This document shows positions 5,567-35,994 of a DNA stretch of 43,455 bases, in pieces. This DNA is from Alloalcanivorax mobilis. Lineage in GTDB: Bacteria > Pseudomonadota > Gammaproteobacteria > Pseudomonadales > Alcanivoracaceae. Location of the stretch: assembly GCF_002864685.1 (NCBI RefSeq), contig NZ_NMQZ01000045.1:1-43455 (forward strand), written 5' to 3'. Under the pieces are notes generated by a model that was not told where the DNA came from, ran no database searches, and saw only the letters and a program-made list of their open reading frames with translations. Position numbers and translations under genes: made by a program. Numbering within the stretch: the first letter of the stretch is position 1; each line of letters begins with the position of its first letter.

Positions 5567-5592
5567 CGCGTTGCTAGTCACAAGGATGCGCA

Positions 5593-9820: not shown

Positions 9821-10842
9821 ATGTCTATTAAATGGCGGTATCAGTGGTTTAAGGATCTCGTTTGCATGGGGCTTCGCCTCATGAAGGTCCATGCCATGGC
9901 TCAAAGAAAGTCCAAGGAGTTGTGGCTCGTTCAGGACAACCTGAAAAAAATAGAAAAGGGGGATCTTCTGCTATTCTCGGTAATGAAGAATGAGTCTCAC
10001 CGGCTTCCTTTTTTTTGGAGTATTATAGGAAACTGGGGGTGGATCATTTTATATTGGTGGATAATGAGTCGGAAGATGATTTTCGGGGGATCACATCAGG
10101 CCAAGAAGATGTGACTTCCTTTCATGCAAAGGGAAGTTACAAGGACGCGAACTTTGGAATGCATTGGGCCAATTATCTTTTGAGAAAATATGGCTCGGGA
10201 CATTGGTGTCTGACCTGTGACCCCGATGAGTTTATTGTCTATCCCGAAATGGAGAGCCGGGGTCTTCACGAGCTCACCGATTACCTGGCCTCTATTCGTG
10301 AAGAGTCATTCTTTTCCTGCATGATCGATATGTATGGCGATAAGCCGATTGAGTTTTGCCACTATAAGCAGGGAACCGACCCTCTGGATGTTTGTCCTTA
10401 TTTTGATCGCTTCGGGTATGCCAAGACATATATCGATGATTTGCGTAATGTTTGGGTGCAGGGGGGGGTGAGGCGCCGGGTTTTTTCCAGTGCGAATCCT
10501 TCAGGTGCTCCTGCGCTGAATAAAATTCCATTGGTGAAATGGCAGCGACACTTTGCTTATGTTGAATCCATGCATATGGCTATTCCAAGGCGGCTCAACG
10601 AATCCATTTCCAGAAATAAGACCACAGGGGCTTTGTTGCATTTTAAGTTTATTAGTCAGTTGCGGCAGAAGGTAGATGAAGAGCTGGAGGCCAAGCAGCA
10701 TTTCAACGATTCGGCGGAATATAAAAGATATGATGTGCTTATAAATAGCCATCAAACGCTATTTTGCCCTTCCGTTTCAGGGCGATACGAAAATTGGCGT
10801 ACTCTGGTCAGGCTGGGTTTGATGAATAAAGGGGAGTGGTGA
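9821..10842 (+). pseudogene. GT2-type glycosyltransferase interrupted by a frameshift at a T8 tract
   Basis: Two overlapping readings make one protein. The first, from the ATG at 9821, gives an N-terminus ending FSVMKNESHRLPFF and then goes out of frame at eight Ts (10009-10016). The second frame continues at once with LEYYRKLGVDHFILVDNESEDD and runs to 10842. Adding one T restores a continuous reading of 340 residues. KNE, VDNES and CDPDEF are hallmarks of the GT2 subfamily with DxDEF catalytic carboxylates (Glyco_tranf_2_4-like). AAGG lies about 8 nt before the ATG. The gene may be a true pseudogene, phase-variable, rescued by slippage at T8, or a sequencing error. It also contains a G8 tract at 10461-10468. 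Confidence 0.8.
10009..10016 (+). repeat. T8 homopolymer at the glycosyltransferase frameshift
   Basis: Eight consecutive Ts lie exactly where the two halves of the glycosyltransferase change frame. Nine Ts would give an intact gene. Confidence 0.9.
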
Positions 10843-10848
10843 AGAAAC

Positions 10849-12396: not shown

Positions 12397-12400
12397 GGCT

Positions 12401-14445
<2,045 letters not shown>

Positions 14446-14459
14446 CAGCAGGGCAATCG

Positions 14460-15419
14460 ATGAGTAGTTCCTTGGTCGTCGTGGTGGTGACCTACAACCG
14501 CCTTTCCCATCTGAAGGTGGGCATTGAGGCGCTGGGCCGGCAAGACTGTGACGCCATCGTGGTGGTGGACAACTGCTCCACCGACGGCACGCAGGAATGG
14601 CTGCTCGAAGAGGCGGTGCGGAACGAACGGCTTGACGTGGTGCTGGCGCCGCGTAACCTGGGCGGCGCTGGTGGTTTCGAATTGGGTTTTCGCCACGCTA
14701 TGGAGCGTTACCACGCAGAGTGGTTGGTGTGCTTCGATGACGACGCCTATCCACAGCCCGGAGCTTTTCGGACTTTTCTGGATTCCGATCTAGAAGGCGT
14801 TGATGCGGCGGCGGCGGCGGTGTATCTCCCCGATGGCGAGATCTGTGAGATGAATCGGCCCAGCCTCAATCCTTTTTGGCATCGGCGCTTGTTTCTGAAA
14901 ACCGTGCTCGGTAAAGGTCGCCAGGGTTTTCATCTGGAGGATAGGGATTACTGCTCGAAGATGCCGGTAGACATCGACTCCACATCCTTTGTGGGATTTT
15001 TTGTGCGTAGGGACATGATCCAGCGTGTCGGATTGCCGGAGGGGCGGCTGTTTATTTATGGGGACGATGTGCTCTACACTTTGAAAGTGTCCGATTCGGG
15101 GGGGCGCATTTGCTTCCTGCCTTGGGTCACATTCACCCACGATTGCTCTACCTTTGCAAATCATCGAAGCACTTATGCGCCATTATGGAAGGCCTATTAC
15201 ACTTACCGAAACGGCTTGCGTGTCTACCATACCGCAGCCGGCTGGTTATTCTGGCTGTTCGCACCGCTGAAGATTGCACAGTGGCTGCTGAATGCACGCC
15301 TTTACGACCATCCCACGACTTATCTAAAGGTAGTATATCTGGCAGTGCGGGATGCGATGACCGGCCATTATGGTCGCCGCCACGAAGACGTGGTCAAAAT
15401 GTGCGAATCGAGGCGTTAG
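14460..15419 (+). CDS. GT2 family glycosyltransferase, possible galactofuranosyltransferase
   Basis: The 319-residue GT-A enzyme opens with VVVVVTYNRLSHLKVGIEAL, VVVDNCSTDGT and NLGGAGGFELGF, and has the metal-binding FDDDAYP. This pattern is shared by rhamnosyl- and GlfT-like galactofuranosyltransferases. FIYGDDVLYTLKV carries the probable catalytic acid region. Being the last gene, right after glf, it is the best candidate for a galactofuranose transferase, but that is by position only. The ATG at 14460 was chosen because the residues before it are non-conserved and overlap glf. A hydrophobic C-terminal segment (AGWLFWLFAPLKIAQWLL) may touch the membrane. Confidence 0.85.
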   Translation: MSSSLVVVVVTYNRLSHLKVGIEALGRQDCDAIVVVDNCSTDGTQEWLLEEAVRNERLDVVLAPRNLGGAGGFELGFRHAMERYHAEWLVCFDDDAYPQPGAFRTFLDSDLEGVDAAAAAVYLPDGEICEMNRPSLNPFWHRRLFLKTVLGKGRQGFHLEDRDYCSKMPVDIDSTSFVGFFVRRDMIQRVGLPEGRLFIYGDDVLYTLKVSDSGGRICFLPWVTFTHDCSTFANHRSTYAPLWKAYYTYRNGLRVYHTAAGWLFWLFAPLKIAQWLLNARLYDHPTTYLKVVYLAVRDAMTGHYGRRHEDVVKMCESRR

Positions 15420-15596
15420 TCACATAAGGTTTTCGGAGGATGGTTGCCCCATTCGGCACCAGTACTGCCAACGCCCCAAATCCCATCACGACACAATCCA
15501 CACACCTTCAGAATATCAAGCACCAAGCCCGATGCCGAAATGGGCGCTGTGCTATGCTCCGGCACGAGTTTTCGAGGCCACATTAAGGAAGTCGCC

Positions 15597-16568
15597 ATGT
15601 CTCACGACGTCACCGCTGCATTCCCCGCGTTCCCCACCCCAACGCCGCTGTGCGGCCCTCTACGCCAGCCTCGGCAAATGCTTGCCGAGCAGACCTACGA
15701 CGGCCATAAGTCGATCCACGACGATGCGACGGCGGGCGATCTGGGCTTGCGCGCCGGTCCTATTGAAGGGCCGACTCATTTCAGCCAGTTCGATCCGTTG
15801 TTGTTTCAGTTGTTCGGCCAGCGCTGGTTTGAGTCCGGTTGCATCAGTTCGCATTACCAGAACATGGTGGTCGAGGGCGAGGAGGTGCGTGCCTTTGTGC
15901 AGCCGCCGGCGGCGGGTGAGAGCGTGGCGCGCATTTGGGCGGAGAAGAGCGATGGCACGCCGGTGTTGTCGGGGACTGCGTCGGTGGGCGATGTGCCGGA
16001 CGAGGCGCATGAAATTCCACAGCGTATTGCTCGATTGCGTCCGGCCACCGGGTTGGTGATCAATCGGGATTTGAAGGTGGGGCAGCGCGGTGCGCAGCCT
16101 GAGCAGGTGTCCATGGATTTTGAGCAGCACATGGGCGATTACTATCCGTTTACCCTGGCGGACAAGCTCAGGGTGATCACCGAGCTGTCGCCCTGGTACA
16201 CCCCGGAGGGCGGGCCGGCTTCGCCTTGGGGGCGGGCGATTGTTCCCATCGAGATGATCAGCGTGCTGCTGGGCAGCAGCGGCGACCGCGCCGGGTTGAA
16301 GGGGCGCGGGCCGGCGGTGGGGCTGTTCGCCGGTCAGCAGATCCGGTTGATCAATGGCCCGGTGTTGGTGGGTCAGGCTTATGATCTGGAGCGTGAAATT
16401 ATCGCCTTGAGCGAGAGCAAGCGCACCGAGTCGGTGTGGGTGCGCACGCAGGTGTTCGAGGCGGGCACGCGCACGCTGGTGGCGGAGATGATTCTCAATG
16501 GGGCGACGTTGAAGGCGTCCTATGCGAAGTACGAAGAAGAAGCGCGGGCGCTGGGGTTGGCGACCTGA
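15597..16568 (+). CDS. MaoC/hotdog-like protein of unknown substrate
   Basis: The 323-residue product starts at an ATG with TAAGGAA six nt upstream; longer in-frame readings lack such a site. The stretch with IEGPTHFSQF, LFGQRWFESG and VEGEEVRAFV resembles MaoC-type double-hotdog hydratases or thioesterases, where a substrate-binding helix precedes the G-E-V strand. I see no clear catalytic D/H pair, so the enzyme activity is not established. It is 177 nt after the polysaccharide cassette and GC-rich again, so it probably belongs to the host backbone rather than the cassette. Confidence 0.6.
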   Translation: MSHDVTAAFPAFPTPTPLCGPLRQPRQMLAEQTYDGHKSIHDDATAGDLGLRAGPIEGPTHFSQFDPLLFQLFGQRWFESGCISSHYQNMVVEGEEVRAFVQPPAAGESVARIWAEKSDGTPVLSGTASVGDVPDEAHEIPQRIARLRPATGLVINRDLKVGQRGAQPEQVSMDFEQHMGDYYPFTLADKLRVITELSPWYTPEGGPASPWGRAIVPIEMISVLLGSSGDRAGLKGRGPAVGLFAGQQIRLINGPVLVGQAYDLEREIIALSESKRTESVWVRTQVFEAGTRTLVAEMILNGATLKASYAKYEEEARALGLAT

Positions 16569-16583
16569 GGCAGGGGCAGGGCG

Positions 16584-16606
16584 TGCCCGTCGCGGAGTGA
16601 CGGGCA
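16584..16606 (+). terminator. Hairpin downstream of the hotdog-like gene
   Basis: Perfect 8-bp stem TGCCCGTC/GACGGGCA with a 7-nt loop, 16 nt after the stop codon. It lacks a real T-run, so termination is plausible rather than certain. Confidence 0.45.
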
Positions 16607-16650
16607 GATTCGTTGGTTGCGATCGCGGCCCGCCTCGCCCTTCGGGCTCG

Positions 16651-16676
16651 GTTCGCGGTCAAGGACCGCTCCCACA
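16651..16676 (+). repeat. REP-like palindrome, copy 1
   Basis: Core GCGGTC-AAG-GACCGC stem followed by TCCCACA. It lies within the 49-nt direct repeat whose other copy carries REP copy 2. Confidence 0.8.
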
Positions 16677-16796
16677 GCGGCTGCGTTGCAGAGGCGGCGC
16701 CAGACTGCACACAGCAACCGGACTCGCAACGATGCGATCTGGAGGGTCTCCCCCTTGTTGTGTCGCCGAGTCGCCCGCCTCGCCCTTCGGGCTCGG

Positions 16797-16821
16797 TTCG
16801 CGGTCAAGGACCGCTCCCACA
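16797..16821 (+). repeat. REP-like palindrome, copy 2
   Basis: Same core GCGGTC-AAG-GACCGC and TCCCACA tail as copy 1, in the second copy of the 49-nt direct repeat. Confidence 0.8.
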
Positions 16822-16879
16822 TCAAGATTGCCCTGATGCCTTTAACCTGTCTTCTGCTCCGGCCCGGCTACAACGCCGC

Positions 16880-16904
16880 TGTGGGAGCGATCCTTGATCG
16901 CGAA
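16880..16904 (-). repeat. REP-like palindrome, copy 3 (inverted)
   Basis: Inverted relative to copies 1 and 2. The stem reads GCGATC-CTT-GATCGC, so both arms have changed together compared with the GCGGTC/GACCGC form. Confidence 0.8.
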
Positions 16905-16995
16905 ATCTTTTGGCCGAGTGGCACAGCGGTTTTGCCCTGAGCCTTAGGAGGCCGGAGTAGGAAACGGAGCGGATGAGGCGAGTCTGGGCAAGCCA

Positions 16996-17020
16996 TTCGC
17001 GGTCAAGGACCGCTCCCACA
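16996..17020 (+). repeat. REP-like palindrome, copy 4
   Basis: Core GCGGTC-AAG-GACCGC with TCCCACA, 45 nt from the 3' end of the convergently read sugar-phosphate transferase gene. Confidence 0.8.
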
Positions 17021-17065
17021 TCAAGATCAAACCCGGCAGCCGTTCCTGCCAACAATGGCCGATCC

Positions 17066-18391
17066 TTACCGCGCCCCGAATCCTGTCAGAACGGTGCGCA
17101 CCGTCTTCAGCAGAATCAGCGTATCCAGCCCGAAGCACAGGTGTTTGATGTAGTAGAAGTCGTGTTCCACTTTCTTGCGGGTTTCCGCTAGGCCGGACAC
17201 ATAGCCCTGCTGAACCTGCGCCCAGCCGGTGATGCCGGGTTTGATGATGTGCCGGTAGCTGTAGAACGGCACTTTGCGGTCGAATTGCTTGGCGAACAGC
17301 GGTTGTTCCGGACGTGGGCCGATCAGGCTCATGTTGCCGATCAGCACGTTGAACAGTTGCGGCAGTTCGTCCAGGCGGGTGCGGCGCAGCCAGCGGCCGA
17401 ACGATGTAATACGGTGGTCATCTTCGTCTGCGAACCTGGGGTTGTCGTTTTCGCCGTCGTCCAGATGCATGGAGCGGAACTTGAGCATGCGGAAGGGGAC
17501 GTTGCCGGTGCCCATGCGCCGCTGGATGAACAGGGCCGGGCCGGGGGATTCCAGGCGGATGGCGGCGGCGATCAGGACCATCAGCGGCAGGGCGATGGGC
17601 ATCAGCAGCAGCGCGCCGACCAGGTCCAGGGCGCGTTTGCCGAGCATGTACAGGGGGTTGGGCTGCAGGGTGCGCAGGTCGGAGCTGTTGAGGGCGTCCA
17701 GGTCGACGCTGCCGTCCAGGGATTCGTGCAGGTATTTGCCGCTGAGCACGGGGATCTGGCGGGAGTTGTTGAGGGCGATGAAGCGCACCCATTCGTCGCT
17801 GAGCGGGGCGTCCATGTCCACCACCAGGGCGTCGAAGCGGCGGCGGTCCTTGGGGGAGCGCAGCTCGAAGAAGCGGGCGTTTTCCTGGCAGGGACTGGGC
17901 TCGGCCAGGTTGCCGCCGGGCACCAGGGCGAATTTGGTGTAACGAAAGCGCCCCTTGACGGCGAAGGCCAGCATTTGCGTGAGCGCCAGCAGGGAAAAGC
18001 CGATGAACAGGGGCTTGCGGGCGTAGCCCAGGCGCAGGGCGGTGATGGTGGCCAGGGCGATGCCAATGGTCAGGGCGCTGATGGCGAGCTGGTAGGTTAC
18101 CAGATTGCCGCCGGGGTATTGCATCAAGGCCCTGGAGAGCAACACATTGATCACGAAGGTGCCGGCCAGCACCGACAGGGTGAGAAACTGGTTGGGGTCC
18201 GCGGGCAGGCCCCAGCGGCCATAGGCCAGGCAGAAGGGCATCAGCAGCACCAGCGCCAGGGAAATCGCGTAGCCGAGCGGGGTGTTAAGCAGAATACGCT
18301 CGTACCAGCGCTGGTGGCGGCGCGGCTCCAGCTCCAGAAAGTTCTGTGATTCTTGTGACTCGACGGACAACACCGCACCATCCTGGCGCAT
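17066..18391 (-). CDS. Undecaprenyl-phosphate sugar-1-phosphate transferase (WbaP/WcaJ-like)
   Basis: Polyprenyl-phosphate hexose-1-phosphate transferase that starts glycan assembly on the inner membrane. The 441-residue protein has N-terminal membrane helices (from about residue 36), a soluble middle region, and a C-terminal catalytic domain starting KRALDLVGALLLMPIALPLM. The domain shows ESPGPALFIQRRMG, FRMLKFRSMH, RRTRLDELPQLFNVLIGNMSLIGPRPE and KPGITGWAQV, in the usual order. GAGG lies 7 nt before the ATG. It is on the opposite strand from the polysaccharide cassette, separated by the REP spacer. It may prime the same glycan or serve another exopolysaccharide. Confidence 0.92.
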   Translation of the reverse strand: MRQDGAVLSVESQESQNFLELEPRRHQRWYERILLNTPLGYAISLALVLLMPFCLAYGRWGLPADPNQFLTLSVLAGTFVINVLLSRALMQYPGGNLVTYQLAISALTIGIALATITALRLGYARKPLFIGFSLLALTQMLAFAVKGRFRYTKFALVPGGNLAEPSPCQENARFFELRSPKDRRRFDALVVDMDAPLSDEWVRFIALNNSRQIPVLSGKYLHESLDGSVDLDALNSSDLRTLQPNPLYMLGKRALDLVGALLLMPIALPLMVLIAAAIRLESPGPALFIQRRMGTGNVPFRMLKFRSMHLDDGENDNPRFADEDDHRITSFGRWLRRTRLDELPQLFNVLIGNMSLIGPRPEQPLFAKQFDRKVPFYSYRHIIKPGITGWAQVQQGYVSGLAETRKKVEHDFYYIKHLCFGLDTLILLKTVRTVLTGFGAR

Positions 18392-25516: not shown

Positions 25517-26326
25517 GTGTCGCAGATCAGCCGTGCTTTAAACTACCTGGCCCAGGGCCTGACTCTGGCGAAAAGCCGGGGAATGCGGGCCTATGTCGTG
25601 ATTCCGATGATCTTCAACGTGCTGGTGTTCGGGGCGCTGTATTGGCTCTCGGGGCACTGGATCGGAGAGTGGATCGCCGGGTTGACCGCCGGCTGGCAGT
25701 TCGAGGGCAGTTGGAGTTTCCTCAACGGCGGCATTCATTTCCTGGTCAACGCCGCGGTGATTCTGATCTGGATTCTGCTGCTGGGCCTGTTCGCCAGTGT
25801 GTTCACCTTGGGGGTGCAGTTGCTGGCGGCCCCGTTCATGGGGTTTCTCGCGGAAAAAGTGGACGTTCAGGCGACCGGCCGGCCGATGCCGGAGGAGTCG
25901 ATCCTGGCGATGACCGCGCGCACCTTCAAACGGGAGTTGCGCAAGACCTGGTACTGGCTGTGGCGGGCGGTGCTGATTCTGCTGGTGGTACTGGTGATCT
26001 ACTTTATTCCGGTGGTCAACGTGCTGGCGTCGGCGCTCTGGTTCTTCTGGTCTGGCTGGCTGATGGGCATGCAGTACATCGATTACGCCGCCGACAACCG
26101 GCAGACGCCGTTTCCGGTGATGCTGGAGCGGCTCAAGACCCGCCGTTGGCTGGTGCTGACGTTCGGCTCGGTGGTGCTGGGGCTGACCATGCTGCCGCTG
26201 GTCAATCTGTTCATCATGCCGGTGGCGGTGATTGCCGGCACCCTGATCTGGGTGCACGAGTTGGCGCCGGGGGCGGTGCCCCCGGCTGGGCGGATTGATC
26301 ACCGGTCATCAGCCCGGCCAGAGTAG
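25517..26326 (+). CDS. cysZ: CysZ/EI24 family sulfate permease
   Basis: CysZ mediates sulfate entry for cysteine synthesis. The 269-residue product has the family layout: a short N-terminal segment ALNYLAQGLTLAKSRGMRAYVVIPMIFN leading into the first helix, then paired long hydrophobic helices around GLFASVFTLGVQLLAAPFMGFLAEKV, a charged cytoplasmic stretch, and two further helical pairs. Translation starts at GTG 25517 with GAGGA five nt upstream. It is convergent with the sulfatase gene, a strong hairpin lying between. Its place next to two sulfatases may be functional, since they would release sulfate, or coincidental. Confidence 0.85.
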   Translation: MSQISRALNYLAQGLTLAKSRGMRAYVVIPMIFNVLVFGALYWLSGHWIGEWIAGLTAGWQFEGSWSFLNGGIHFLVNAAVILIWILLLGLFASVFTLGVQLLAAPFMGFLAEKVDVQATGRPMPEESILAMTARTFKRELRKTWYWLWRAVLILLVVLVIYFIPVVNVLASALWFFWSGWLMGMQYIDYAADNRQTPFPVMLERLKTRRWLVLTFGSVVLGLTMLPLVNLFIMPVAVIAGTLIWVHELAPGAVPPAGRIDHRSSARPE

Positions 26327-26365: not shown

Positions 26366-28636
26366 TCAGAGCCGGCAGTCGTTGCCGAAATTGGCGTCGA
26401 TAATGGCTTTATCCGCTTCGTCGGTGTGGCCGTCGCGGTTAAAGTCATACCAGCTGGACATACCGTTGTTACTGGTGCTGAAGCGCTGCCAATTGGCAAG
26501 ATCCTGCTGGTCGACCCGCTGATCCAGGTTGCCGTCACCGGGGCACTCGGCGGCGCTGGCCAACAGGGTGGTGATGTCCGCTTTCAGGGCCGCGTAGTTG
26601 GCGCGCGGATCGAGTCCATCCTCTGGCAGACCATCGGGTGCGGTGTCGGCAAGCAGATCCTCGGCGGCTCTGTCGATTTCCGGCACCGGCGTCTCTTCGT
26701 TCACTGAGTAAAATTCCTCACTGAGCACCGATTCACCGGTCGGTTCACCGGCTTCGCACTGCGGCCGTTCCAGTTGCACCAGCTTAAAGTGCGCATTGCG
26801 GATTGCGCGCTGAGAAGTAGGCATGATGTCCACCGCTTCCTCGCCGAGGAAAGCGTTGACCGCGCAGCAGGAATCAAAGCCCGAGTCCGGCACGCCGCCC
26901 ATCTCGCTACCGGGGCCGTACCAGCTGCCGCCCTGGTCCTCGCACACTTCCTGCTGTGGGAAAATCTGTACGCAAACGTTGTAAGAAGGGATCACGCAGG
27001 GCGGCGCTGGCGCGGCGGCCAGGTTGGCGCCCATTTCCGTATAGTTGACGTCGCGGATGCCGGTGCTGCCGCTGCTCGAATAAACCGGCTCGGTCAGGTA
27101 GGGCAGCAGCGATTGCGCATCCAGGTCTCTCTCCGCGGGTACCGCCTGCTCCAGGTCGATGCCGGCGATCTCGGCGAACAAGCTGTACAGATCGGTGCTG
27201 TTGACCAAATGCCCAATGTCGCGGTCCGGTTGGTTGACCATCGGGCCGGCCACGATCAGTGGTACCCAGACACCGGTTTGATAGGGAAAGCCCTTGGAGC
27301 GGGTCGGATCGAAGGGCCAGCGCACGCTGGGGGCGTAGGTGCCGTTGTCGCCGACAATAATGACCACGGTATTGCTGTGCGGATCGTATTGCAGGCTGTC
27401 TCCGTCTGTCCGGGCGACACCGGATTGAATCAGAAGACGACGGATTTCATGATCCATCGCTTCGAGCATTTGTTTGGTCATCACCCGTTGCTGGCGGATA
27501 TTGGACAGATCCGTGCAGTCGTAGCCGCCGGTTTGCTCGGCGTCGCTGGGTAACAGAGCGCGCGGCGGCGGTTGCAAGGGGGTGTGGATGGCGGAATAAC
27601 CGACACTGAGCATCCACGGGTGATCCGGTTGCTGCTCGCGAACCTGAGCCAGCCAATCCAGGGCGCGGTCGGTTTCCAGGACGGTGCGGTAACCCCGGGA
27701 GCGGCTGTCGGCGACAGGGGCCCGGTCGTCGCTGCCGTCCATGTTATTGATGATCCAGTCGCCGGTGTAATAGCCGTTCTGGAGGTCGAAGTCGGGCGCC
27801 GCCGCCACGCCGGTGGGGACGAAGACGCCCCCCTGTTCCAGGCAGGCCTGCCCCGGGGTGTCGTAATCATCGATGCTCATCGACGACTCGCCGCCACCGG
27901 GCAGGTGGCAGATGCCCTGGTCGGCGCCGTTGGCGGCGTCCCGGGTGTTGGGCACGAAACCGCACGGGTAGTCGCCGCTGTCACCAACGCCGCCGGCGCT
28001 GGTGTCGATGGGGTAGGGGCCGCCATCCAGGTAGCCGTCGAAGTAATCCCAGCCCAGCTCGCGCATCACGTCATCGCCCAGCGGGTTATTGTCCGGGTTG
28101 AGGTCGGAGCCAGACAAATGCATCTTACCCACGACCGCGCTGACGTAACCCTTTTGGCGCAGCAGCCGGGGCGTGGTGATCTCGTACGGCGACACCTGCG
28201 AATTGGCCAGGTCCAGCGTGACAATGGCGTTCCTCACGTTGGTGCGAAACGGATAGCGGCCTTCGAAAAAGGTGGCCCGGCTGGGTGAGCAGGTGGGCAT
28301 CGCCCAGGTGTTGCGAAAGCGCACACCCTGGTCGGCGATGGCGTCGATACTCGGTGTCAGTGCCGGCGAGATCGCGGCGGCGCCGCTGAAGTCGGCGTCC
28401 CAGAGCGGCGCGCGTTGGCGGATCATTTCCTCGAACGCCGCCCGCTGTTCCTCGTTCTGTGCGACCAGGCCGCCGTAACCGAACGATTGCAGTTGGTCGA
28501 CGCCCACGTCGTCGAGCACGATAAACAGAATGTTGGGTGGCTGGGCGTCTTGCTGCGCCGTTGAATCAGAGTCGGAGTGGCAGCCACTCAGAACCGCTGC
28601 CGTCACCAACAGCCCAAGGCTGTATAACGCTTTCAT
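26366..28636 (-). CDS. Lipoprotein sulfatase with dockerin-like C-terminus (sulfatase 1)
   Basis: Predicted sulfate-ester hydrolase of 756 residues. The signal peptide ends in the lipobox LSGC with Cys19. The sulfatase fold starts NILFIVLDDVGVD (metal Asp42, Asp43), and C116-S-P-S-R120 is the canonical formylglycine motif. K171/H173, H351 and D430-N431 fit the remaining active-site residues. The last ~60 residues form two EF-hand-like calcium loops (DGNLDQRVDQQDL and DFNRDGHTDEADK) resembling a dockerin type I module. GGGGGA precedes the ATG. It lies 37 nt after the histidine kinase gene, probably in the same operon. The substrate is unknown. Confidence 0.88.
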   Translation of the reverse strand: MKALYSLGLLVTAAVLSGCHSDSDSTAQQDAQPPNILFIVLDDVGVDQLQSFGYGGLVAQNEEQRAAFEEMIRQRAPLWDADFSGAAAISPALTPSIDAIADQGVRFRNTWAMPTCSPSRATFFEGRYPFRTNVRNAIVTLDLANSQVSPYEITTPRLLRQKGYVSAVVGKMHLSGSDLNPDNNPLGDDVMRELGWDYFDGYLDGGPYPIDTSAGGVGDSGDYPCGFVPNTRDAANGADQGICHLPGGGESSMSIDDYDTPGQACLEQGGVFVPTGVAAAPDFDLQNGYYTGDWIINNMDGSDDRAPVADSRSRGYRTVLETDRALDWLAQVREQQPDHPWMLSVGYSAIHTPLQPPPRALLPSDAEQTGGYDCTDLSNIRQQRVMTKQMLEAMDHEIRRLLIQSGVARTDGDSLQYDPHSNTVVIIVGDNGTYAPSVRWPFDPTRSKGFPYQTGVWVPLIVAGPMVNQPDRDIGHLVNSTDLYSLFAEIAGIDLEQAVPAERDLDAQSLLPYLTEPVYSSSGSTGIRDVNYTEMGANLAAAPAPPCVIPSYNVCVQIFPQQEVCEDQGGSWYGPGSEMGGVPDSGFDSCCAVNAFLGEEAVDIMPTSQRAIRNAHFKLVQLERPQCEAGEPTGESVLSEEFYSVNEETPVPEIDRAAEDLLADTAPDGLPEDGLDPRANYAALKADITTLLASAAECPGDGNLDQRVDQQDLANWQRFSTSNNGMSSWYDFNRDGHTDEADKAIIDANFGNDCRL

Positions 28637-28673
28637 GATGTTCCCCCTTATGTAACATCCACCACGGATGTTT

Positions 28674-30506
28674 TCAAAGCAGCGTTCCCGTCAACGGCCG
28701 TTGCGACTCCGCCACCGTGGGTTCCGGCAGGCGAAGGGGCAGAAGCAGGGATAACCGCGTGCCGCTTTCCAGCGGCTCAATATAAATATCGCCATGGAGC
28801 TGGCGCACACGCCGGCGCATATTGCGCAGCCCGCTGCCGCCCCGGTCAGCTTGACGGGGGAAGGGCAGGCCATCGTTTTCCACCGCGATGCGTGCCCGGC
28901 CATCGTCCTGCCGGTCGCCGGACACCAGGATGCGTGTGGGTTGGCCGTGCTTGATGGCGTTGGTGATGGCTTCCTGGACAATGCGCAACACATTCAAGGC
29001 GTGCGATGGCGTAACGCCGGCGATTTCCGGCAGCCGTGCCATCGACCATTCCAGGCCGATGCCGGTGCGTTTCAGTTGCCGCTCCAGCCGCTCACGCAGC
29101 CCCGCCAAGGCCACGGGCAGTTCGCGGTCATCGATATCCAGGGATTGGACCACCAACCGCAGATCGTCCAGGGCCTCGCGGGCGGCACGTTCCACTTGCC
29201 GCGAATTTTCCCGTTCGGATAAAGCAATGATGGATGCCAGATGGCCGGACAACCCGTCATGCAAATCGGCGGTAAGGCGGGCGCGCTCCTCGCTGAGTAC
29301 CTGCTGTGCGGCTTTGCGGCGATCCGCCTCATGCAGGCACGCCAGCTCCCGTTCGCGCTGCTCCAGGCGATCCGTCAAATAACCGTTGACGTTGTCCAGG
29401 CGTGTCAGGCTGATGCCCAGACGGCGCATCAGAATCATGGCGATACCAATCAACATCAGCGGCCGGTAATACATCGACAGAAGAATCGGGTTGCTCAGTT
29501 CACCGAGCAGCACCAGCAGATCGTGGAGCCCGGTAATCGTCATCAACGACAAAGGCAACACCAACAGCCAGGCTTCGTGTAGTCGGCGGGCAAACGCCGC
29601 CCAGGCGACGATGCCCGACGCCACCAGCATGCTGAGAATATTGAGCGGCGCGCTGACAAGCAGCACCAGACGATGTGCCGGCACCAGCCCGCTCAGACCC
29701 AGCAGCACGCACACCGAGGGAATCGCCACCGTCGCCATTTTCAGCCAGCGCGGCGGTGGCTGCCCGGCGATCAGCAACACCGTGATCACCAGGATCAGGC
29801 TGGCCGAAGAGCCGGCCATCACCAGATAGGGCATCACCGCCATGAAGTTCGGAACCAGCTCCCAGACCATGCCCAGATAGATCACCATGGACATAAGCAG
29901 CAGCGAGAACATCCAGCCAAACAACGCTTCCGCCGGCCGGTATAACCAGACCACCCCGACCACCAGAGCGATCAGCAATTGCGCGGCCAGCACCATGAAA
30001 CGCAGATATTCGAGCACGAACACCCGCACCCGATAGTGCACCGCCAGCTGCTCGATACCGCCCACGTAAGCCCGGGACAAACCGGTGGGCAGCAGATCCA
30101 CGGAACGCAACGACACCTCGATAACATTGCGACCGACCTTGAGACTCTCCAGTGGCAAACGGATCAGCACCGGTGTGCCGGAGGCCATGCCCACCATGGA
30201 GATACGATCCTCGGCATTGCCGACCGGTTGCCCGGCGAGTTCAAAGGTGGCCTGCTGGCTGGCCACCGGAATGAACAAATAGCTCGGCGCCACCTGATCA
30301 AGCTCGAAGCTCAGACGGTAATGCTCATGGCCACCGGCTTTGCGGCCGACCAGCGGCAGGTTCACCGGAACCTCGCCGTGCGGCTCCACGCGCACCGCCT
30401 GGGTGATGGCCCGGGCGTCGGGCTCCGGCAGGGTCAGCCACAGCGGCACGCTGGCCAGGATGGCCAGAAGTCCCCACAGTAGTCCCACCCCCCAAGCGCG
30501 CTTCAC
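28674..30506 (-). CDS. 7TM histidine kinase (NarX/DesK-like HisKA_3)
   Basis: Membrane sensor kinase of 610 residues starting at a GTG that overlaps the response-regulator stop (GTGA); a more upstream ATG would overlap the regulator by 124 nt. The layout is an N-terminal helix, a periplasmic beta-rich domain of ~160 residues, a block of about seven helices (7TMR-DISM-like), a coiled coil, then HisKA_3 with ADLHDGLSGHLASI (His416). An HATPase with EAITNAIKHG and GGSGLRNMRRRV follows. Such sensors detect extracellular ligands, often sugars, or membrane state. Here the likely output is the LuxR-type regulator next door and the flanking sulfatases. Confidence 0.88.
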   Translation of the reverse strand: MKRAWGVGLLWGLLAILASVPLWLTLPEPDARAITQAVRVEPHGEVPVNLPLVGRKAGGHEHYRLSFELDQVAPSYLFIPVASQQATFELAGQPVGNAEDRISMVGMASGTPVLIRLPLESLKVGRNVIEVSLRSVDLLPTGLSRAYVGGIEQLAVHYRVRVFVLEYLRFMVLAAQLLIALVVGVVWLYRPAEALFGWMFSLLLMSMVIYLGMVWELVPNFMAVMPYLVMAGSSASLILVITVLLIAGQPPPRWLKMATVAIPSVCVLLGLSGLVPAHRLVLLVSAPLNILSMLVASGIVAWAAFARRLHEAWLLVLPLSLMTITGLHDLLVLLGELSNPILLSMYYRPLMLIGIAMILMRRLGISLTRLDNVNGYLTDRLEQRERELACLHEADRRKAAQQVLSEERARLTADLHDGLSGHLASIIALSERENSRQVERAAREALDDLRLVVQSLDIDDRELPVALAGLRERLERQLKRTGIGLEWSMARLPEIAGVTPSHALNVLRIVQEAITNAIKHGQPTRILVSGDRQDDGRARIAVENDGLPFPRQADRGGSGLRNMRRRVRQLHGDIYIEPLESGTRLSLLLPLRLPEPTVAESQRPLTGTLL

Positions 30507-31168
30507 AAACGAATAAGCCCCCGTTTCGACGCCTCGTAAACGGCCTCCGAACGATTGTTGGCGGCCAGCTTTCGGTAGATATTTTTTATATGCACCGGCA
30601 CCGTCTGATGCGAAATATTCAACCACTCGGCCAGCTCGGCGTAGGTGAACCCTTTGGCGATGCCGCGCAGGATTTCCGTTTCCCGAGGCGTCAACGCCGG
30701 CCCCGTCGGGTTTTGCGCCGGGGCCCCCATGCGCCGTACCAGGACCCGGGCAATGGATGAGGAAATCGGCGAACGCCCGGCGCGCACCTCCTCAATCGCC
30801 TCTAGCAGCTCAATCGAGTCGGCGTCCTTGAGCAGATACCCCACCGCGCCGGCTTCAATGGCTTCCAACACGGTTTCGTCATCGGCCAGCACCGAAATCA
30901 CCAGGGCGTCGGCGTTCGGATTGAGCCGGCGCAACTGGCGGATGGCCTCGGTGCCGTGACCGTCCGGCAGGCGCAAATCCGTCAGCAACAGATCAACCTT
31001 GTGCTTGCCCAGTGCCGCCAGGGCCTCGCCAAGCGTGGCGCACGCCGTCACCAGCCTGCCACCGGGCCAGCCTGCCAGAATGCGCGCGAAGCGCTCTCTC
31101 AGCGGAGCATCGTCCTCAAGCAGAAGGATTTGCGCCACCGGGTCTTGAGTGGACGGGTTGTGTTCCAT
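30503..31168 (-). CDS. LuxR/NarL-family response regulator
   Basis: Receiver domain with acidic pocket LLLEDD (Glu-Asp-Asp) and phosphoacceptor Asp64 in LLLTDLRLPDG, then a C-terminal GerE-type helix-turn-helix: LTPRETEILRGIAKGFTYAELAEWLNISHQTVPVHIKNIYRKL. The first gene of a minus-strand operon with the kinase and sulfatase 1. I place the start at 31168, which gives 221 residues and puts the receiver near the N-terminus. An in-frame ATG at 31231 would add 21 non-conserved residues; neither has a strong Shine-Dalgarno. Likely regulates the divergent sulfatase 2 transcript too; that is inference. Confidence 0.87.
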   Translation of the reverse strand: MEHNPSTQDPVAQILLLEDDAPLRERFARILAGWPGGRLVTACATLGEALAALGKHKVDLLLTDLRLPDGHGTEAIRQLRRLNPNADALVISVLADDETVLEAIEAGAVGYLLKDADSIELLEAIEEVRAGRSPISSSIARVLVRRMGAPAQNPTGPALTPRETEILRGIAKGFTYAELAEWLNISHQTVPVHIKNIYRKLAANNRSEAVYEASKRGLIRL

Positions 31169-31231
31169 GAGCGGCTCATGATGATTTGCCCGTGACTGTG
31201 CGGCACAGGGCGGACGATCAATATACCCCAT

Positions 31232-31401
31232 TTATGGTATGCCCCCCTGCGGCCGCCGATGGCGATACTGGGCGATATGAATAATGTAACCGGCCTGGCT
31301 CATGACACCGCGACGGAAAAGGGGCTTAATAGCCGCATCGTCGCCGGAAAAAGGGTGCCGTCGAACAACCAATCGCAAGCCGGGATTTTTTTGAGCGCCT
31401 G
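31232..31401. promoter_or_regulatory. Divergent control region of the sulfatase module
   Basis: About 170-245 nt separate the regulator gene (minus) from sulfatase 2 (plus), so both promoters must lie here. A/T-rich patches (around 31215-31240 and 31272-31290) are the best places for -10 elements. I could not identify a repeated operator by eye. Confidence 0.4.
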
Positions 31402-31413
31402 ATGGGGGATACC

Positions 31414-33606
31414 ATGAAACGGTGCCAATCGTTGATAAAAGGGGCTGCGCTTTGGCCTTGTCTGTTGGTCTTGCTGTTGGGAGCGTGCGGGGGAGGCGGC
31501 GGCGATTCGTCGCCCGAGGTGGCCGAGGCACCGCCCAATTTCCTGCTGGTGGTGGTGGACGATGTCGGCATTGATCAGTGGCGGCTGTTTGGTTACGGCG
31601 GTTATACGCCAGCGCAGACTCCGAACATTGACGCCATCGCTCAGGGTGGCGTGCGTTTCCAGAATTTGTGGTCGATGCCGGCCTGCTCGAATGGTCGTGC
31701 TGCTTTATTTACCGGCCGTTATCCGTTTCGCACTCAGGTCTATACCGCGCTGGGCAACAACGACCTGGCCAATTACATGCTCAACCCCAACGAGACCACC
31801 TTGCCCCGGCTGCTCAAGCCGCTTGGCTATAAGAGTGCGTTGTTTGGCAAATACCATATGGGGATCCAGGCCAATCACCCCGATGGCGAAGCCATGGTGC
31901 ACGCCAGTGGCTTCGACTATTTCGAAGGCTGGCTGGACCAAACCGGCGACCCGTCGTCCATCGACACCACCGCCGGCGGAGTGGCGCCGGAGGGTAGCTG
32001 GTCGTGTGGTTTCGTGCCCGACGCCGCCCATGGCGGTGCCAACAGCGGTGCTTGTTACACGCCGGACGGTGCCTGCCAGGCGTTGAGCAAGACCGGCGCC
32101 CAGGCACCGGGCCGGGTGTGCCGGGACAGCGGTGGTATTTTCGATCCCGGCGCTGCCTGCCAGGCGCCGACGCCGGGCAACATCGATTTCAATCGGCTCA
32201 GCGGCCACTATGTGTCGCCGCTGGTGATCAACCACGAAGACGGCTCGGTGGAGCAGGTGCCACTCACCGACCGGCGCGCGCGCACCTGGCGCGGCAGTGA
32301 GCCGATCGACGCCGCGCTGGGCTGGCTTGATCGTCAACCGCAAGGGCAGCCCTGGATGATCGCGCTCAGCTTCGCCACCGATCACACGCCATTGATGCAA
32401 CCGCCCAGCGCCACCTTGCCCGACGACCAGCCGGACTCCAGCCATCTGGATTGCGCCTCCATGGTGGACCAGCGGATTCTTTCCAATCAGATGGAAGAAT
32501 CGATGGACCACGAACTGGCGCGCTTTATGGTCAACGCCGGCCTGGCTCGCTACGGCGCGAGCGGCGAGCTGATCTATGACCCCAAGGCCAGCAACACCTA
32601 TGTGGTGCTGGTCAGTGACAACGGCAGCCTGGGCACCGTGGTCAAGGCGCCGTTCGAGCCCACCCGCGCCAAATCCACCGCCTACCAGACCGGCATCTGG
32701 AACCCGGGCATCGTCGCCGGGCCGGGCATCGCGGAGCCGGGCCGCTCGGTGGACGCCATGGTCAACATCGTCGATCTGTACCAACTGATCGGTGAGCTGG
32801 CGGGTGTCGAGGATGTGCACGCGGCGGTACCCCGGCCGCTGGATTCGCAAGCCATGAGGCCGTATCTGGAAAGCGCCAACCAGAGCGCCATTCGCGCCAG
32901 CAATTTCTCCGAGATCGGCACCAATCTGCACGCCAACGGCGAGCTGAACGGGCCCTGTGTGTACAGCACCACCACCTGTACTCAGATCGCCCCGAGCAAA
33001 GGCGTGTGCAACGACAACGGCGGCACCTGGTGGGGCGAAGGCCCGGACAACGCCAGTGCGCCTCCGGAGGGCTTCGGAAAGTGCTGCGAGCTGGCCCAAT
33101 GGCAAAACGACAACGGGCTGACCGTGGCCGACAATATCTACCCCAAGGCCGCCTACGCGATCCGCAACGAGATCTACAAGCTGGTACGTAACGAGTACGA
33201 CGCTTACGACGCCAGCGCCGATGCCTGCGCGGACGACACCGTGGTCTACGAGCTCTATCAGATCGACCAGGCCGTGCCGTCCCCGACCCTGGACCGGGAA
33301 GAGGCCAACCTGATGCCGGCGTCCACCGGCGTATCGCTTACCGTGGAGCAGCAGCAAAATTACGATGACCTGAACAATCAGATGGATACGCTGCTGGCGT
33401 CGCGGGCGTCCTGCCGGGGCGATGTGGACCTAAACGGAACCGTCGATGAAAACGACATCGCCCAATGGAGTGACCTCAAGGCGAAGTCCGGTGGCCGCTC
33501 GAGCTGGGCCGACATCAACCAGGACGGCATCACCGACGACACCGACCGGACCTTGATACAAGAGAGCTTCGGCGCCTGTTCGTCTTCCGGCGACAACGGC
33601 GGCTGA
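31414..33606 (+). CDS. Lipoprotein sulfatase homologue with altered CxPxR motif and dockerin-like tail (sulfatase 2)
   Basis: Paralogue of sulfatase 1 on the opposite strand, 730 residues from the ATG at 31414 (GGGGGA just upstream; another ATG 12 nt earlier lacks this site). The signal ends LLGAC with Cys25, then a Gly-rich linker. The metal site starts FLLVVVDDVGID. The formylglycine motif is C91-S-N-G-R95, not CxPxR or CxAxR, so Pro is replaced by Asn. SDNG and GKYHMG motifs are present. The tail DVDLNGTVDENDI and DINQDGITDDTD forms two EF-hand-like loops. It is followed by the octaheme cytochrome gene after 57 nt. Confidence 0.85.
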   Translation: MKRCQSLIKGAALWPCLLVLLLGACGGGGGDSSPEVAEAPPNFLLVVVDDVGIDQWRLFGYGGYTPAQTPNIDAIAQGGVRFQNLWSMPACSNGRAALFTGRYPFRTQVYTALGNNDLANYMLNPNETTLPRLLKPLGYKSALFGKYHMGIQANHPDGEAMVHASGFDYFEGWLDQTGDPSSIDTTAGGVAPEGSWSCGFVPDAAHGGANSGACYTPDGACQALSKTGAQAPGRVCRDSGGIFDPGAACQAPTPGNIDFNRLSGHYVSPLVINHEDGSVEQVPLTDRRARTWRGSEPIDAALGWLDRQPQGQPWMIALSFATDHTPLMQPPSATLPDDQPDSSHLDCASMVDQRILSNQMEESMDHELARFMVNAGLARYGASGELIYDPKASNTYVVLVSDNGSLGTVVKAPFEPTRAKSTAYQTGIWNPGIVAGPGIAEPGRSVDAMVNIVDLYQLIGELAGVEDVHAAVPRPLDSQAMRPYLESANQSAIRASNFSEIGTNLHANGELNGPCVYSTTTCTQIAPSKGVCNDNGGTWWGEGPDNASAPPEGFGKCCELAQWQNDNGLTVADNIYPKAAYAIRNEIYKLVRNEYDAYDASADACADDTVVYELYQIDQAVPSPTLDREEANLMPASTGVSLTVEQQQNYDDLNNQMDTLLASRASCRGDVDLNGTVDENDIAQWSDLKAKSGGRSSWADINQDGITDDTDRTLIQESFGACSSSGDNGG

Positions 33607-33663
33607 CGTGTTCGACGGCCTGGGTGCGAAGCGATTATCCGGCCGGGGCCGGACGGGGTACCG

Positions 33664-35994
33664 GTGACCGACAGGGAAAAGGAAGCCGGGGTCTTGGCGA
33701 GCGGCCGTGCGCAGCGCTGGAATCGGGGGCTGTTGCTGGTCGGTGCCGGGTTAATGATCCTGGTGGTGTCCCTGGCTCTGCACAGCGCCTGGCGTGACCC
33801 GGCCGCGGGCGGCCCGACCATCGACCGGCGCGGCACCGGCGACGGCGCGCCTGACTTCGTTGGCTCGCGGGCCTGCGCCGGCTGCCACGCTGAACAACAC
33901 CAGGCCTGGCTCGGTTCCCATCATCAACTGGCGATGCAACCGGCCAGCGAAACCAGCGTGCTCGGTGATTTCAATCAAGCGCGCCTGGCGGATGGCGACG
34001 GCGCCACCTTTTTTCGCGATGGCGACGCCTTCATGGTGCGCACCACCGGTCCTCAGGGCACCGTGCGCGACTACCCGATCCACTACACCTTCGGAGTCGA
34101 GCCCCTGCAGCAATATCTGATCGCACTGCCCGGTGGCCGCTTGCAGGCCTTCGGCACCGCCTGGGACAGCCGCCCCCGCGAACAGGGCGGCCAGCGCTGG
34201 TTCGCGCTGTATCCGGAGTCCCAGGGGCAGCCTTCCAGCCCGCTGCACTGGAGCGCCATCGACCAGAACTGGAACGGCGCCTGTGCGCACTGCCATTCCA
34301 CCGGGCTGCGCAAGCATTACGATGCCAAGACACAGCGCTACGCGACCACCTTTTCAGAGGTCAGCGTCGGTTGCGAAGCCTGCCACGGGCCCGGCTCGGC
34401 CCACCTGGCCTGGGCCCGCGATCCCCACGGGCACGCCAACATCGGCCCCGGCCATGGCCTGAGTCTGGATTTCGGCAAAGACGCTCGCGGCCACTGGCGC
34501 TATGACGCCAGCGCCGGGCGGGTGATCGGGCAGGGCCCGCGCAGTGGCGCATTGGAAGTGGAAACCTGCGCCCGCTGCCACGCCCTCGGCACGCCGATTC
34601 ACGAAGACCCGGTGCACGGCCAGCCGGTCAGCGACGAGATCCGCGTGGCGTTGCTCGACCCCGAGCTTTATTTTCCGGACGGGCAGATCAAAGGCGAGGT
34701 GTTCGAATACGGCTCCTTTATCCAGAGCCGCATGTTCCACGCCGGCGTCACCTGCGCCAATTGCCACGAGCCGCACAGCGCCCGGTTGCGTGCCGAGGGC
34801 AACGGCCTGTGCACCCAGTGCCACCAGGCCGCCGCCTATGACACGCCGGCTCACTCACACCACCCGGCCGGCTCCGCGGGTTCGCAGTGCGTGGCCTGCC
34901 ACATGCCCGAGCGCACCTATATGCGCATCGATGGGCGCCGCGATCACAGCATTCGTGTGCCCCGGCCGGATCTGTCGGCGTCCCTCGGCACGCCCAATGC
35001 CTGTAACCAGTGCCACCAGGACCGAAGCCCGGCCTGGGCGGCGGGCCGCATCGACCACTGGCGTGCTGCTCACACCAAGGGCTTACAGCGGTTTGGGCCG
35101 GCATTGTGGGCGGCGGGCGAAGGCGCGCCCGGCGCCGGGCAAAGTCTGGAGCGGCTGATCGGCGACCCCGAGCAACCGGCGATCGCCCGTGCCACCGCCC
35201 TGTCATTGCTCGCCGACAGCGCCGCCGGCAACCAAATCGACGATGCCGGCTCGCTGTTCCGGCAGGCCGCCGACGACCGGTCGCCACTGGTAAGGCGCGC
35301 CGCCGCGCGCCATCCGTCGGCGGCGCTTGCCCTGCTCGACGATCCGGTGCGCGCGGTGCGCATCGCGGCGGCGGAATCGCTGGCCGCGTTGGCGGCGCCA
35401 CCGTCATCGCGGGCCGCGTCGCAAACCCTGCAGGCGGCGGCGGGCCAGTACCGTCAGGCCCAGGCGTTGAACGCCGACCGTCCCGAGGCGCACCTGGGGC
35501 TGGCCGGTTTTCACGCCGCCCAGGGTGATCTGGAACGCGCCCAGGCCGAGCTGGAAACCGCGCTGGCCCTGGACCCGGCTTTTGTGCCAGCAGCGATCAA
35601 TCTGGCCGATTTCCACCGCGCTCAGGGTCACGATGACAGGGCCGAAGCGGTGCTGCGCGAAGCGCGGCGCCATGCCCCCGAGGCGCCCGCCTTGAGCTAC
35701 GCACTGGGCTTGCTGGAAGTGCGCGGCGGGCATCACAAGCAGGCCCTGGAAGCGCTCGCCGCCGCCCGGCGCCAAGCGCCCGATAACCCCGAATACGCAT
35801 ACGTCTATGCCTTGGCGCTGAACGAACGCGGTGACAGCGCCGGGGCCATTGAGGTTCTGGAAGCATCCCTGGGTCAGCATCCCTTCCACCGGCCCTCCAT
35901 CGCCGCGCTGGCCAGCTTTTACGACCAGCTTGGCCAGCCCGACCAGGCGATGCGCTATCAGCGGATGTTGCGGCAATGGGGGCAGGTTCCGTAA
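33664..35994 (+). CDS. Octaheme c-type cytochrome with TPR domain
   Basis: Predicted periplasmic electron-transfer protein of 776 residues, anchored by an N-terminal helix (about 21-40). Eight CxxCH haem sites start at residues 71, 207, 237, 302, 364, 383, 409 and 447. After about residue 465 there is a helical repeat region with HEAT-like pattern (ARATALSLLADSA), then TPRs (for example PEAHLGLAGFHAAQGDLERAQAELETALALDP). The start is GTG with a GGGG-rich site upstream. Related cytochrome-c554-like/TPR proteins are known without clear function. It probably shares the transcript of sulfatase 2. A link between electron transfer and sulfate-ester breakdown is not obvious. Confidence 0.87.
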   Translation: MTDREKEAGVLASGRAQRWNRGLLLVGAGLMILVVSLALHSAWRDPAAGGPTIDRRGTGDGAPDFVGSRACAGCHAEQHQAWLGSHHQLAMQPASETSVLGDFNQARLADGDGATFFRDGDAFMVRTTGPQGTVRDYPIHYTFGVEPLQQYLIALPGGRLQAFGTAWDSRPREQGGQRWFALYPESQGQPSSPLHWSAIDQNWNGACAHCHSTGLRKHYDAKTQRYATTFSEVSVGCEACHGPGSAHLAWARDPHGHANIGPGHGLSLDFGKDARGHWRYDASAGRVIGQGPRSGALEVETCARCHALGTPIHEDPVHGQPVSDEIRVALLDPELYFPDGQIKGEVFEYGSFIQSRMFHAGVTCANCHEPHSARLRAEGNGLCTQCHQAAAYDTPAHSHHPAGSAGSQCVACHMPERTYMRIDGRRDHSIRVPRPDLSASLGTPNACNQCHQDRSPAWAAGRIDHWRAAHTKGLQRFGPALWAAGEGAPGAGQSLERLIGDPEQPAIARATALSLLADSAAGNQIDDAGSLFRQAADDRSPLVRRAAARHPSAALALLDDPVRAVRIAAAESLAALAAPPSSRAASQTLQAAAGQYRQAQALNADRPEAHLGLAGFHAAQGDLERAQAELETALALDPAFVPAAINLADFHRAQGHDDRAEAVLREARRHAPEAPALSYALGLLEVRGGHHKQALEALAAARRQAPDNPEYAYVYALALNERGDSAGAIEVLEASLGQHPFHRPSIAALASFYDQLGQPDQAMRYQRMLRQWGQVP

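Follow-up and report, generated by a model that had tools for sequence, protein, structure and literature searches.

An octaheme cytochrome recurring beside exported cysteine-type sulfatases, and a two-component module that contains it in Alloalcanivorax mobilis

Why should a cytochrome with eight hemes be placed next to sulfatases? The question is raised by a contig of Alloalcanivorax mobilis (NZ_NMQZ01000045.1, from assembly GCF_002864685.1, a genome of 4.1 Mb in 92 contigs), whose 43,455 nt are called here the window. The window contains a module of five genes in two divergent arms (Table 1): a response regulator, a sensor kinase and sulfatase 1 on the minus strand, and sulfatase 2 followed by an octaheme c-type cytochrome-TPR protein, for short cyt8, on the plus strand. 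The first-pass annotation of this DNA had described these five genes, their strands, the divergence and the GTGA in which the stop of the regulator and the start of the kinase overlap, all of which are present in the window, and had read them as a self-contained and regulated sulfatase system, possibly coupled to electron transfer. The results presented below shift the emphasis, since the partnership between cytochrome and sulfatases matters more than the module itself. Handles are given as G for genomes (G000 being that of the window), L for fetched loci and f for taxonomic families of the order-level set.

The distribution of cyt8 was analyzed in 390 genomes of the order Pseudomonadales with an alignment of seven cytochrome domains (E-value ≤ 1e-30). 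The cytochrome was found in 128 of them, while a sulfatase alignment matched 13, four by partial matches only. Forty regions, chosen mostly from the top of the list and not at random, were fetched, one of which (L135, G019) belongs to the window's own family; genes were called from open frames and mutual similarity, and 36 regions hold cyt8. A sulfatase is located within 5 kb of cyt8 in 15 of these 36 regions and within 1 kb in 12, over 11 of 17 taxonomic families. The chance of finding one within 5 kb is about 2-3% per region, as calculated from 559 PF00884 matches in 80 genomes, a table that served only for per-genome counts, under the assumption of a genome size of 3-4 Mb and of independent regions, which they are not fully. 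When the gene families placed up to three genes from cyt8 are compared over 44 loci, sulfatases span 11 of the 17 taxonomic families and the runner-up spans 3. In many loci both genes share the strand, with gaps of 0 to about 200 bp. We regard the cyt8-sulfatase partnership as very probably real.

The partner enzymes are far from uniform. Forty neighboring sulfatases were compared, 31 located within three genes of cyt8 in genome regions and nine from the first ten plasmid records opened; sulfatase 1 of the window, four genes away from cyt8, was left out, and the L132 sulfatase is truncated. The active-site motif could be read in 39 and begins with Cys in every one: CTAGR, CSPTR, CTPGR, CSPGR, CTPTR, CSNGR, CAASR and CTSSR, of which CSNGR and CTSSR fall outside C-X-P/A-X-R. 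Most have Sec-like or lipoprotein N-termini; these calls, like all those of lipoboxes, hydrophobic segments and twin-arginine (Tat)-like N-termini in this work, were made by inspection of the sequence and not by a signal-peptide program. Median length-scaled pairwise identity is about 15%, with 65% of the 780 pairs below 25%. The recurrence of cyt8 with sulfatases of so many kinds suggests that it plays one role for them all, and what had been noted as a possible coupling to electron transfer in one locus is recast as a widespread pairing of cyt8 with diverse sulfatases.

Plasmids extend the pairing beyond the order. Homologs of cyt8 occur in 146 of 72,556 plasmid records (E-value ≤ 1e-20), and 15 of them, picked for spread, were opened. 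Even with an incomplete gene table, an annotated sulfatase lies at most three genes from cyt8 in 13 of the 15, including Alphaproteobacteria and one Bacteroidota. Since five records are copies of one Rhizobium leguminosarum-group locus, about nine of 11 independent contexts agree. In all five copies (L160, L166, L247, L248 and L249) a sensor kinase and a regulator diverge from an arylsulfatase-HAD-cyt8 row. Homology of this two-component system to that of the window was considered and rejected, the regulator showing only a generic 31% similarity and the kinase no match at 1e-3; hence two-component system, sulfatase and cyt8 seem to have been assembled separately there. Sulfatase and cyt8 overlap by 4 bp in Methylosinus. 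In Aureibacter (Bacteroidota; L163, 3338-8190) cyt8 is separated from a sulfatase, annotated as two pieces, by a cytochrome b N-terminal protein and a Rieske protein, an arrangement that suggests a contact with quinol and a quinol-linked electron path for cyt8.

Within the window's family, Alcanivoracaceae, 46 genomes were searched with sulfatase 2. A full-length sulfatase pair was found in six of them (G000, G018, G026, G029, G034 and G035), and comparison of the window with at most 20 kb of surrounding DNA from each of the five others shows regulator, kinase, cyt8 and both sulfatases together in all six, so that the idea of a recurrent five-gene group survives the comparison. The gene order is regulator-kinase-cyt8-sulfatase, divergent from the second sulfatase, in G018, G026 and G029, while G034 and G035 have all genes on the same strand, the two sulfatases being separated by a gene for a beta-barrel protein (in L040 OMP_b-brl, 31.0 bits with a cut-off of 28.7; a similar gene in L041). 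The maintenance of the five genes together despite rearrangement argues for a function. The cytochrome itself is present in 11 of the 46 genomes; ten copies are full-length and every one of these has a sulfatase gene nearby. The eleventh, in G009, is partial (C31:126205-126711), the single PF00884 match of that genome being on a different contig, and G006 retains a sulfatase fragment in a 143-aa frame (C2:873658-874038) and has no cyt8; both fragments are possible remnants. As for other arrangements, outer-membrane-barrel-type genes (OMP_b-brl, DUF481, DUF2490) are located beside cyt8 or between sulfatases at L040 11259-12047, L160 8227-9015 and L163 8474-9175. In two genomes of another genus of the family (L042, 1757-11943, and L043) an RND pump, composed of a fusion protein and an AcrB-type protein, precedes two CTAGR sulfatases and cyt8; neither the kinase nor the regulator of the window has a match in these two loci.

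The cytochrome can be exchanged within the module. A quick tree was built from 53 proteins, one short row of 54 having been dropped, with the module group fixed by gene context beforehand. The cyt8 proteins of the other five modules form one clade (100 in the Shimodaira-Hasegawa-like approximate likelihood ratio test, SH-aLRT) that leaves the window's protein outside, and the approximately unbiased (AU) test rejects a single clade for all six (p-AU 5.1e-5). The two sulfatases of the window keep to module relatives, sulfatase 1 joining three of them (97) and sulfatase 2 the one of Alloalcanivorax balearicus (100); identity to the other modules is 61-63% for the kinase and 80-84% for the regulator. 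The guanine plus cytosine content of the window's cyt8 is 69.5%, compared with 63-63.4% in its four partners. Thus, the window's cyt8 is of another lineage while the four partners kept their kin, the slot being conserved and its occupant exchanged; with cyt8 as an exchangeable part, the description of the module as self-contained was too strong. Moreover, one and the same cyt8 clade is found beside differing sulfatase types (CTAGR and CSPTR in f47, CTAGR and CTPGR in f16), as expected of a general helper.

Control of the module would be exerted by its own two-component system. The regulator is composed of a receiver and a LuxR-type helix-turn-helix (HTH) domain, both above cut-off. The N-terminal 200 residues of the kinase match no Pfam family and contain several hydrophobic segments; after them come a HisKA_3 match below cut-off, on account of which the kinase is filed as HisKA_3-like, and the HATPase_c domain, above its cut-off. 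NarL sites are inverted heptamers of the 7-2-7 form. When the six module loci were compared over the DNA preceding the regulator, a conserved element of the type TACCATRAATNGGGTA was found in every one; in four of them, the window and three relatives, it separates the divergent arms. An alternative, longer start of the regulator, an ATG at 31231, falls inside the element. A scan of the window and the five loci, restricted to these sequences and allowing up to 3 mismatches, gave 11 matches over the six sources (1, 3, 1, 1, 2 and 3), with a chance expectation of 0.15-0.53 per source. Nine of the 11 have at most 2 mismatches: eight upstream of the aligned start of the regulator and one in L037 (10393-10408), past the end of the kinase at 10351 and ahead of the cyt8 start at 10461. 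Since the pattern was derived from the segments upstream of the regulator, only the L037 copy, located outside them, counts as an independent match. Both upstream elements of L040 sit within an open frame of the opposite strand, and the two elements with 3 mismatches both lie in L041, at 1290 upstream of the regulator and at 4403 inside cyt8. The position of the element 5' of the regulator in all six loci, and its placement between the arms in four of them, is consistent with joint control. A regulated module with a predicted operator, as the recurrence of the genes and of the element in the six loci indicates, is well supported, in agreement with the regulated system that had been postulated.

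Both module sulfatases exceed the Pfam cut-off for PF00884, and the gene of sulfatase 1 starts 37 bp after the end of the kinase gene. The type I signature, which PMC6189696 gives as (C/S)-X-(P/A)-X-R, is present in sulfatase 1 as CSPSR; the CSNGR of sulfatase 2 departs from it, with N at the P/A position, and this protein is accordingly filed only as a PF00884 superfamily member. In the named genome collection sulfatase 2 matched only A. balearicus. The reading of both enzymes as dockerin-tailed lipoproteins stood in part: their lipoboxes, LSGC and LGAC, predict exported lipoproteins, whereas the tails score below the PF00404 cut-off and are called dockerin-like. A selenocysteine at the TGA of two sulfatase relatives was also considered and discarded; in G026 the TGA is an ordinary stop beyond the C-terminus, and the G029 frame ends alike.

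Table 1. Features of the sulfatase-cytochrome module and its immediate neighbor in the window
Feature	Position	Strand	Evidence or remark
CysZ sulfate permease	25517..26326	+	NCBIfam 188 bits, cut-off 140; convergent neighbor of the module
Sulfatase 1, 756 aa	26366..28636	-	LSGC lipobox; PF00884 79.2 bits (cut-off 25); CSPSR
Dockerin-like C-terminal tail, sulfatase 1	26396..26542	-	PF00404 E-value 0.0014, 19.3 bits, cut-off 22.9
Active-site motif CSPSR of sulfatase 1, Cys residue 116	28277..28291	-	agrees with the type I signature
Sensor histidine kinase, 610 aa	28674..30506	-	HATPase_c 42.9 bits; HisKA_3 20.1 bits, cut-off 24
Response regulator, 221 aa, LuxR-type HTH	30503..31168	-	Response_reg 74.0 bits; GerE 62.6 bits
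Operator-like inverted heptamers TACCATA-AA-TGGGGTA	31224..31239	-	between the divergent arms, 55 bp before the regulator ATG at 31168
Sulfatase 2, 734 aa	31402..33606	+	LGAC lipobox; PF00884 99.8 bits (cut-off 25); CSNGR
Active-site motif CSNGR of sulfatase 2, Cys 95	31684..31698	+	common to the A. balearicus protein
Dockerin-like C-terminal tail, sulfatase 2	33418..33561	+	PF00404 E-value 0.0072, 16.9 bits, cut-off 22.9
cyt8, with N-terminal hydrophobic segment, HEAT-like stretch and TPR tail	33664..35994	+	eight CXXCH between 33874 and 35016

The cytochrome contains eight CXXCH motifs, and exactly eight are kept in 52 of 54 compared homologs. PF13435 and TPR repeats are above cut-off and a HEAT match is below, so that its earlier description as an octaheme cytochrome with TPR repeats holds. 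Local similarity was found to structures 6i5b (E-value 1.5e-12) and 6qvm (E-value 1.8e-9), the latter listed as a multiheme cytochrome; we take both to be OcwA. The match to NrfA-like cytochrome c552 (PF02335), 23.2 bits, falls short of the cut-off of 24.1. Outside the CXXCH motifs seven His residues are at least 93% conserved in the 54 homologs, for eight hemes; this is suggestive only of one heme without a distal His, and alignment errors could explain it. By its N-terminal hydrophobic segment cyt8 is predicted to be anchored facing the periplasm.

Taking these results together, we propose that the locus is a module for exported Cys-type sulfatases under two-component control, and that its constant partner, cyt8, is a general redox partner of such sulfatases, acting most likely in their maturation, a reading to which we give a probability of about 0.35. 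Sulfatases need formylglycine, and two maturases are known, FGE and anSME. What the sulfatases that accompany cyt8 have in common is not a substrate but a Cys nucleophile that undergoes a two-electron oxidation, and for this reason the role of cyt8 is placed there. In the model, the kinase would respond to a signal in the periplasm or membrane, and binding of the regulator to the inverted heptamers would switch on both arms. The cytochrome would act on the feature common to all its partner sulfatases, as a redox partner in the post-export oxidation of the active-site Cys to formylglycine; the TPR/HEAT part would hold the client sulfatase, and the hemes would take or deliver electrons. An anchored multiheme protein that faces the periplasm and ends in a TPR tail fits a redox helper gripping exported clients. 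That cyt8 contributes to the Cys-to-formylglycine step is a tentative proposal. Its extension, a third sulfatase maturation system in the form of a periplasmic heme machine for Sec-exported sulfatases, which would tolerate CSNGR-like signatures and be spread across Proteobacteria and at least one Bacteroidota plasmid, we consider somewhat unlikely.

The known maturases were sought. In the six module genomes PF03781 identified eight proteins: one EgtB-like protein per genome, for which G000 shows DinB_2 plus the FGE domain, and an additional protein of 252-253 aa, presumably NirV, that G018 and G029 encode beside a copper-nitrite-reductase-like gene. The catalytic Cys pair of FGE, taken as GGSxxC-x4-C from an alignment with the Streptomyces coelicolor enzyme, is absent from all eight, and anSME (TIGR03942) reached its cut-off in none of eight genomes, among them the six module genomes. 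Over 80 cyt8-bearing genomes PF03781 matched 67 at 1e-25, the Cys pair was present in two (G374 and G120) of the 30 FGE-family loci read, each from a different genome, and anSME was above cut-off in three. PF00884 was present in 80 of 80 cyt8-bearing genomes, a set that differs from the preceding one in a single member, G022 having been used for the maturases in place of G046; PF00884 is present in G022 as well. A third sulfatase maturase has reportedly been suspected since the work of Benjdia in 2007 with aslB/ydeM deletions in E. coli.

A number of observations weigh against the proposed explanation. No sulfatase is found within 5 kb in 21 of the 36 order-level regions, where no constant substitute neighbor was seen either, and two of the 15 plasmid records (H43 and H44), in the incomplete gene table, list none. 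Near-identical cyt8 proteins of one genus occur with (L136) and without (L156) a sulfatase, in G155 and G053, and where the nearest kin of the module sulfatases occur in other families (L117-L121), the 6-9 kb read to either side contain no cyt8, except that L120 has one 12 kb away. The exclusive presence of Cys in the neighbors may reflect only the rarity of Ser-type enzymes in these bacteria. As for the maturases, anSME is above cut-off in 13 of the 390 order genomes, three of which carry cyt8, a proportion near the base rate of 128/390, and mutual exclusion of the two was thus not found; and the cyt8-less genomes G020, G021 and G027 gave only split PF03781 matches resembling EgtB-type proteins, as judged from the matches and not from the sequences. 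Known maturases thus seem to be rare across the order as a norm, and their rarity alone is no evidence for cyt8. The window's own genome encodes two further Cys-type sulfatases, at C9:66121-67356 (CSATR, without signal peptide) and C6:30825-31895 (CSPSR, Tat-like N-terminus), and with neither FGE nor anSME recognized in it, another maturation route probably exists. Sinorhizobium meliloti, whose plasmids are among the cyt8 matches, is said in PMC6189696 to have a putative FGE. Finally, AlphaFold models of two sequences gave the TPR tail with high confidence and a heme domain that is not usable.

One alternative is that maturation takes place by another route, cyt8 serving as a TPR chaperone or tether, in thiol redox protection or in periplasmic assembly, which we hold to be possible without being likely. 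The well-modeled TPR tail is in its favor, as is the existence of Cys sulfatases with Tat-like N-termini in the cyt8-less family genomes G002, G008 and G023, a statement that covers those PF00884 matches of the family whose sequences were read. A further maturation system is suspected in E. coli according to PMC6189696 and PMC8379841, the latter calling it still unidentified. Eight hemes would, however, be superfluous in a chaperone or tether, and they are conserved almost without exception. In another alternative, the alcohol or phenol freed by the sulfatase would be oxidized by a dehydrogenase and cyt8 would pass the electrons to the respiratory chain. Such product oxidation is favored by the Methylosinus locus, where genes for a 2Fe-2S protein and a molybdopterin-binding protein come after sulfatase and cyt8, and by three f21 genomes in which, with no sulfatase present, a heme-motif gene (F17) precedes cyt8, itself preceded in two of the three by a gene that by inspection is flavin-dehydrogenase-like. 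Nevertheless, apart from the sulfatase no neighbor family exceeds 3 taxonomic families, and the sulfatases are too diverse for one common product, which makes this explanation improbable.

The interpretation of the first-pass annotation, desulfation at the surface of external or self glycans with cyt8 as an electron conduit, seems to us equally improbable. The dockerin-like tails of the lipoprotein-type sulfatases would suit it, and so would the beta-barrel gene between the sulfatases of L040 and L041, the DUF481 and DUF2490 genes after cyt8 elsewhere, and the family-1 glycosidase, alpha-L-fucosidase or TonB receptors found at about 6-12 kb in some plasmid loci with cyt8. Against these, no glycosidase, lyase or TonB receptor was found among the module genes and the scanned flanking genes, which are part of the frames of the window, as the annotation itself had remarked of glycan-degrading enzymes; the cytochrome of the window carries an N-terminal hydrophobic anchor, and the hydrolysis of a sulfate ester frees no electrons. 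A purely ecological link, in which sulfatase and cyt8 are transferred together horizontally because both suit habitats rich in sulfate esters, and have no functional contact, would account for the varying order and surroundings of the module in several genomes and for the number of plasmid records with cyt8. It is very unlikely in view of the short same-strand gaps, down to the overlap in Methylosinus, of the operator-like copy placed before cyt8 in L037, and of the occupation of the same slot by a cytochrome of different lineage.

The module is flanked in the window by cysZ on one side and by smc-zipA-ligA on the other. CysZ, which had been placed just outside the module, is indeed there; its membership was considered and rejected, as the stretches read near the sulfatases in seven further genomes, which include the five other module genomes, gave no cysZ homolog, and it is probably a housekeeping neighbor. 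The CDF transporter, solute-binding protein and SMC of the window likewise have no match in the regions of the other five module genomes. A surface polysaccharide cluster, whose core is poor in GC (47-51% at 8-14 kb, 62% overall), occupies 74-18391 of the window. It encodes a nucleotidyl transferase, UDP-glucose/GDP-mannose dehydrogenase, PGI, PGM/PMM, an epimerase/GDP-mannose dehydratase, an ABC-2 exporter, glycosyltransferases, UDP-galactopyranose mutase and a sugar transferase. No sulfotransferase was recognized among its scanned genes (0-18.4 kb), two of which (8862-9797 and 15444-16568) have no Pfam match, and with this reservation the idea that the sulfatases act on a self glycan was set aside.

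The association of cyt8 with varied exported Cys sulfatases, in genomes where FGE and anSME were seldom found, makes it a concrete candidate for a third maturase. Should a role in maturation not be borne out, the recurrent pairing would still be a functional link between sulfatases and a cytochrome of which no description was found in the literature searched, most subscription journals being outside its reach; the same holds for the five-gene combination, which the annotation had also thought undescribed. In addition, the module supplies a defined regulon of a two-component system, together with its predicted operator.

Comparison with known systems delimits the proposal. FGE and anSME resemble cyt8 only in the proposed task, the oxidation of an active-site Cys; cyt8 belongs to other Pfam families, and neither maturase is recognized in the six module genomes. 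With multiheme proteins of the Cytochrome_C554 type (OcwA, NrfA/octaheme) cyt8 has in common the PF13435 match and the local similarity to 6i5b and 6qvm, and it differs from them in its eight CXXCH, its TPR plus HEAT-like C-terminal part and the lack of a defined substrate. The regulator resembles those of NarL-type two-component systems in its Response_reg and GerE domains and in the 7-2-7 element, whereas the kinase differs in its first 200 residues and in a HisKA_3 match below cut-off. Sulfatase loci for polysaccharide utilization, such as those for carrageenan and fucoidan, also have exported sulfatases and dedicated regulation; here, among the scanned window genes, glycosidase, lyase and TonB receptor are missing and the partner is a cytochrome. 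The type I formylglycine sulfatases (PF00884/S1) share with the module enzymes the Pfam family, the position of the Cys nucleophile and export as judged from sequence, while the module is set apart by the CSNGR of sulfatase 2, the dockerin-like tails and the pairing with an octaheme cytochrome.

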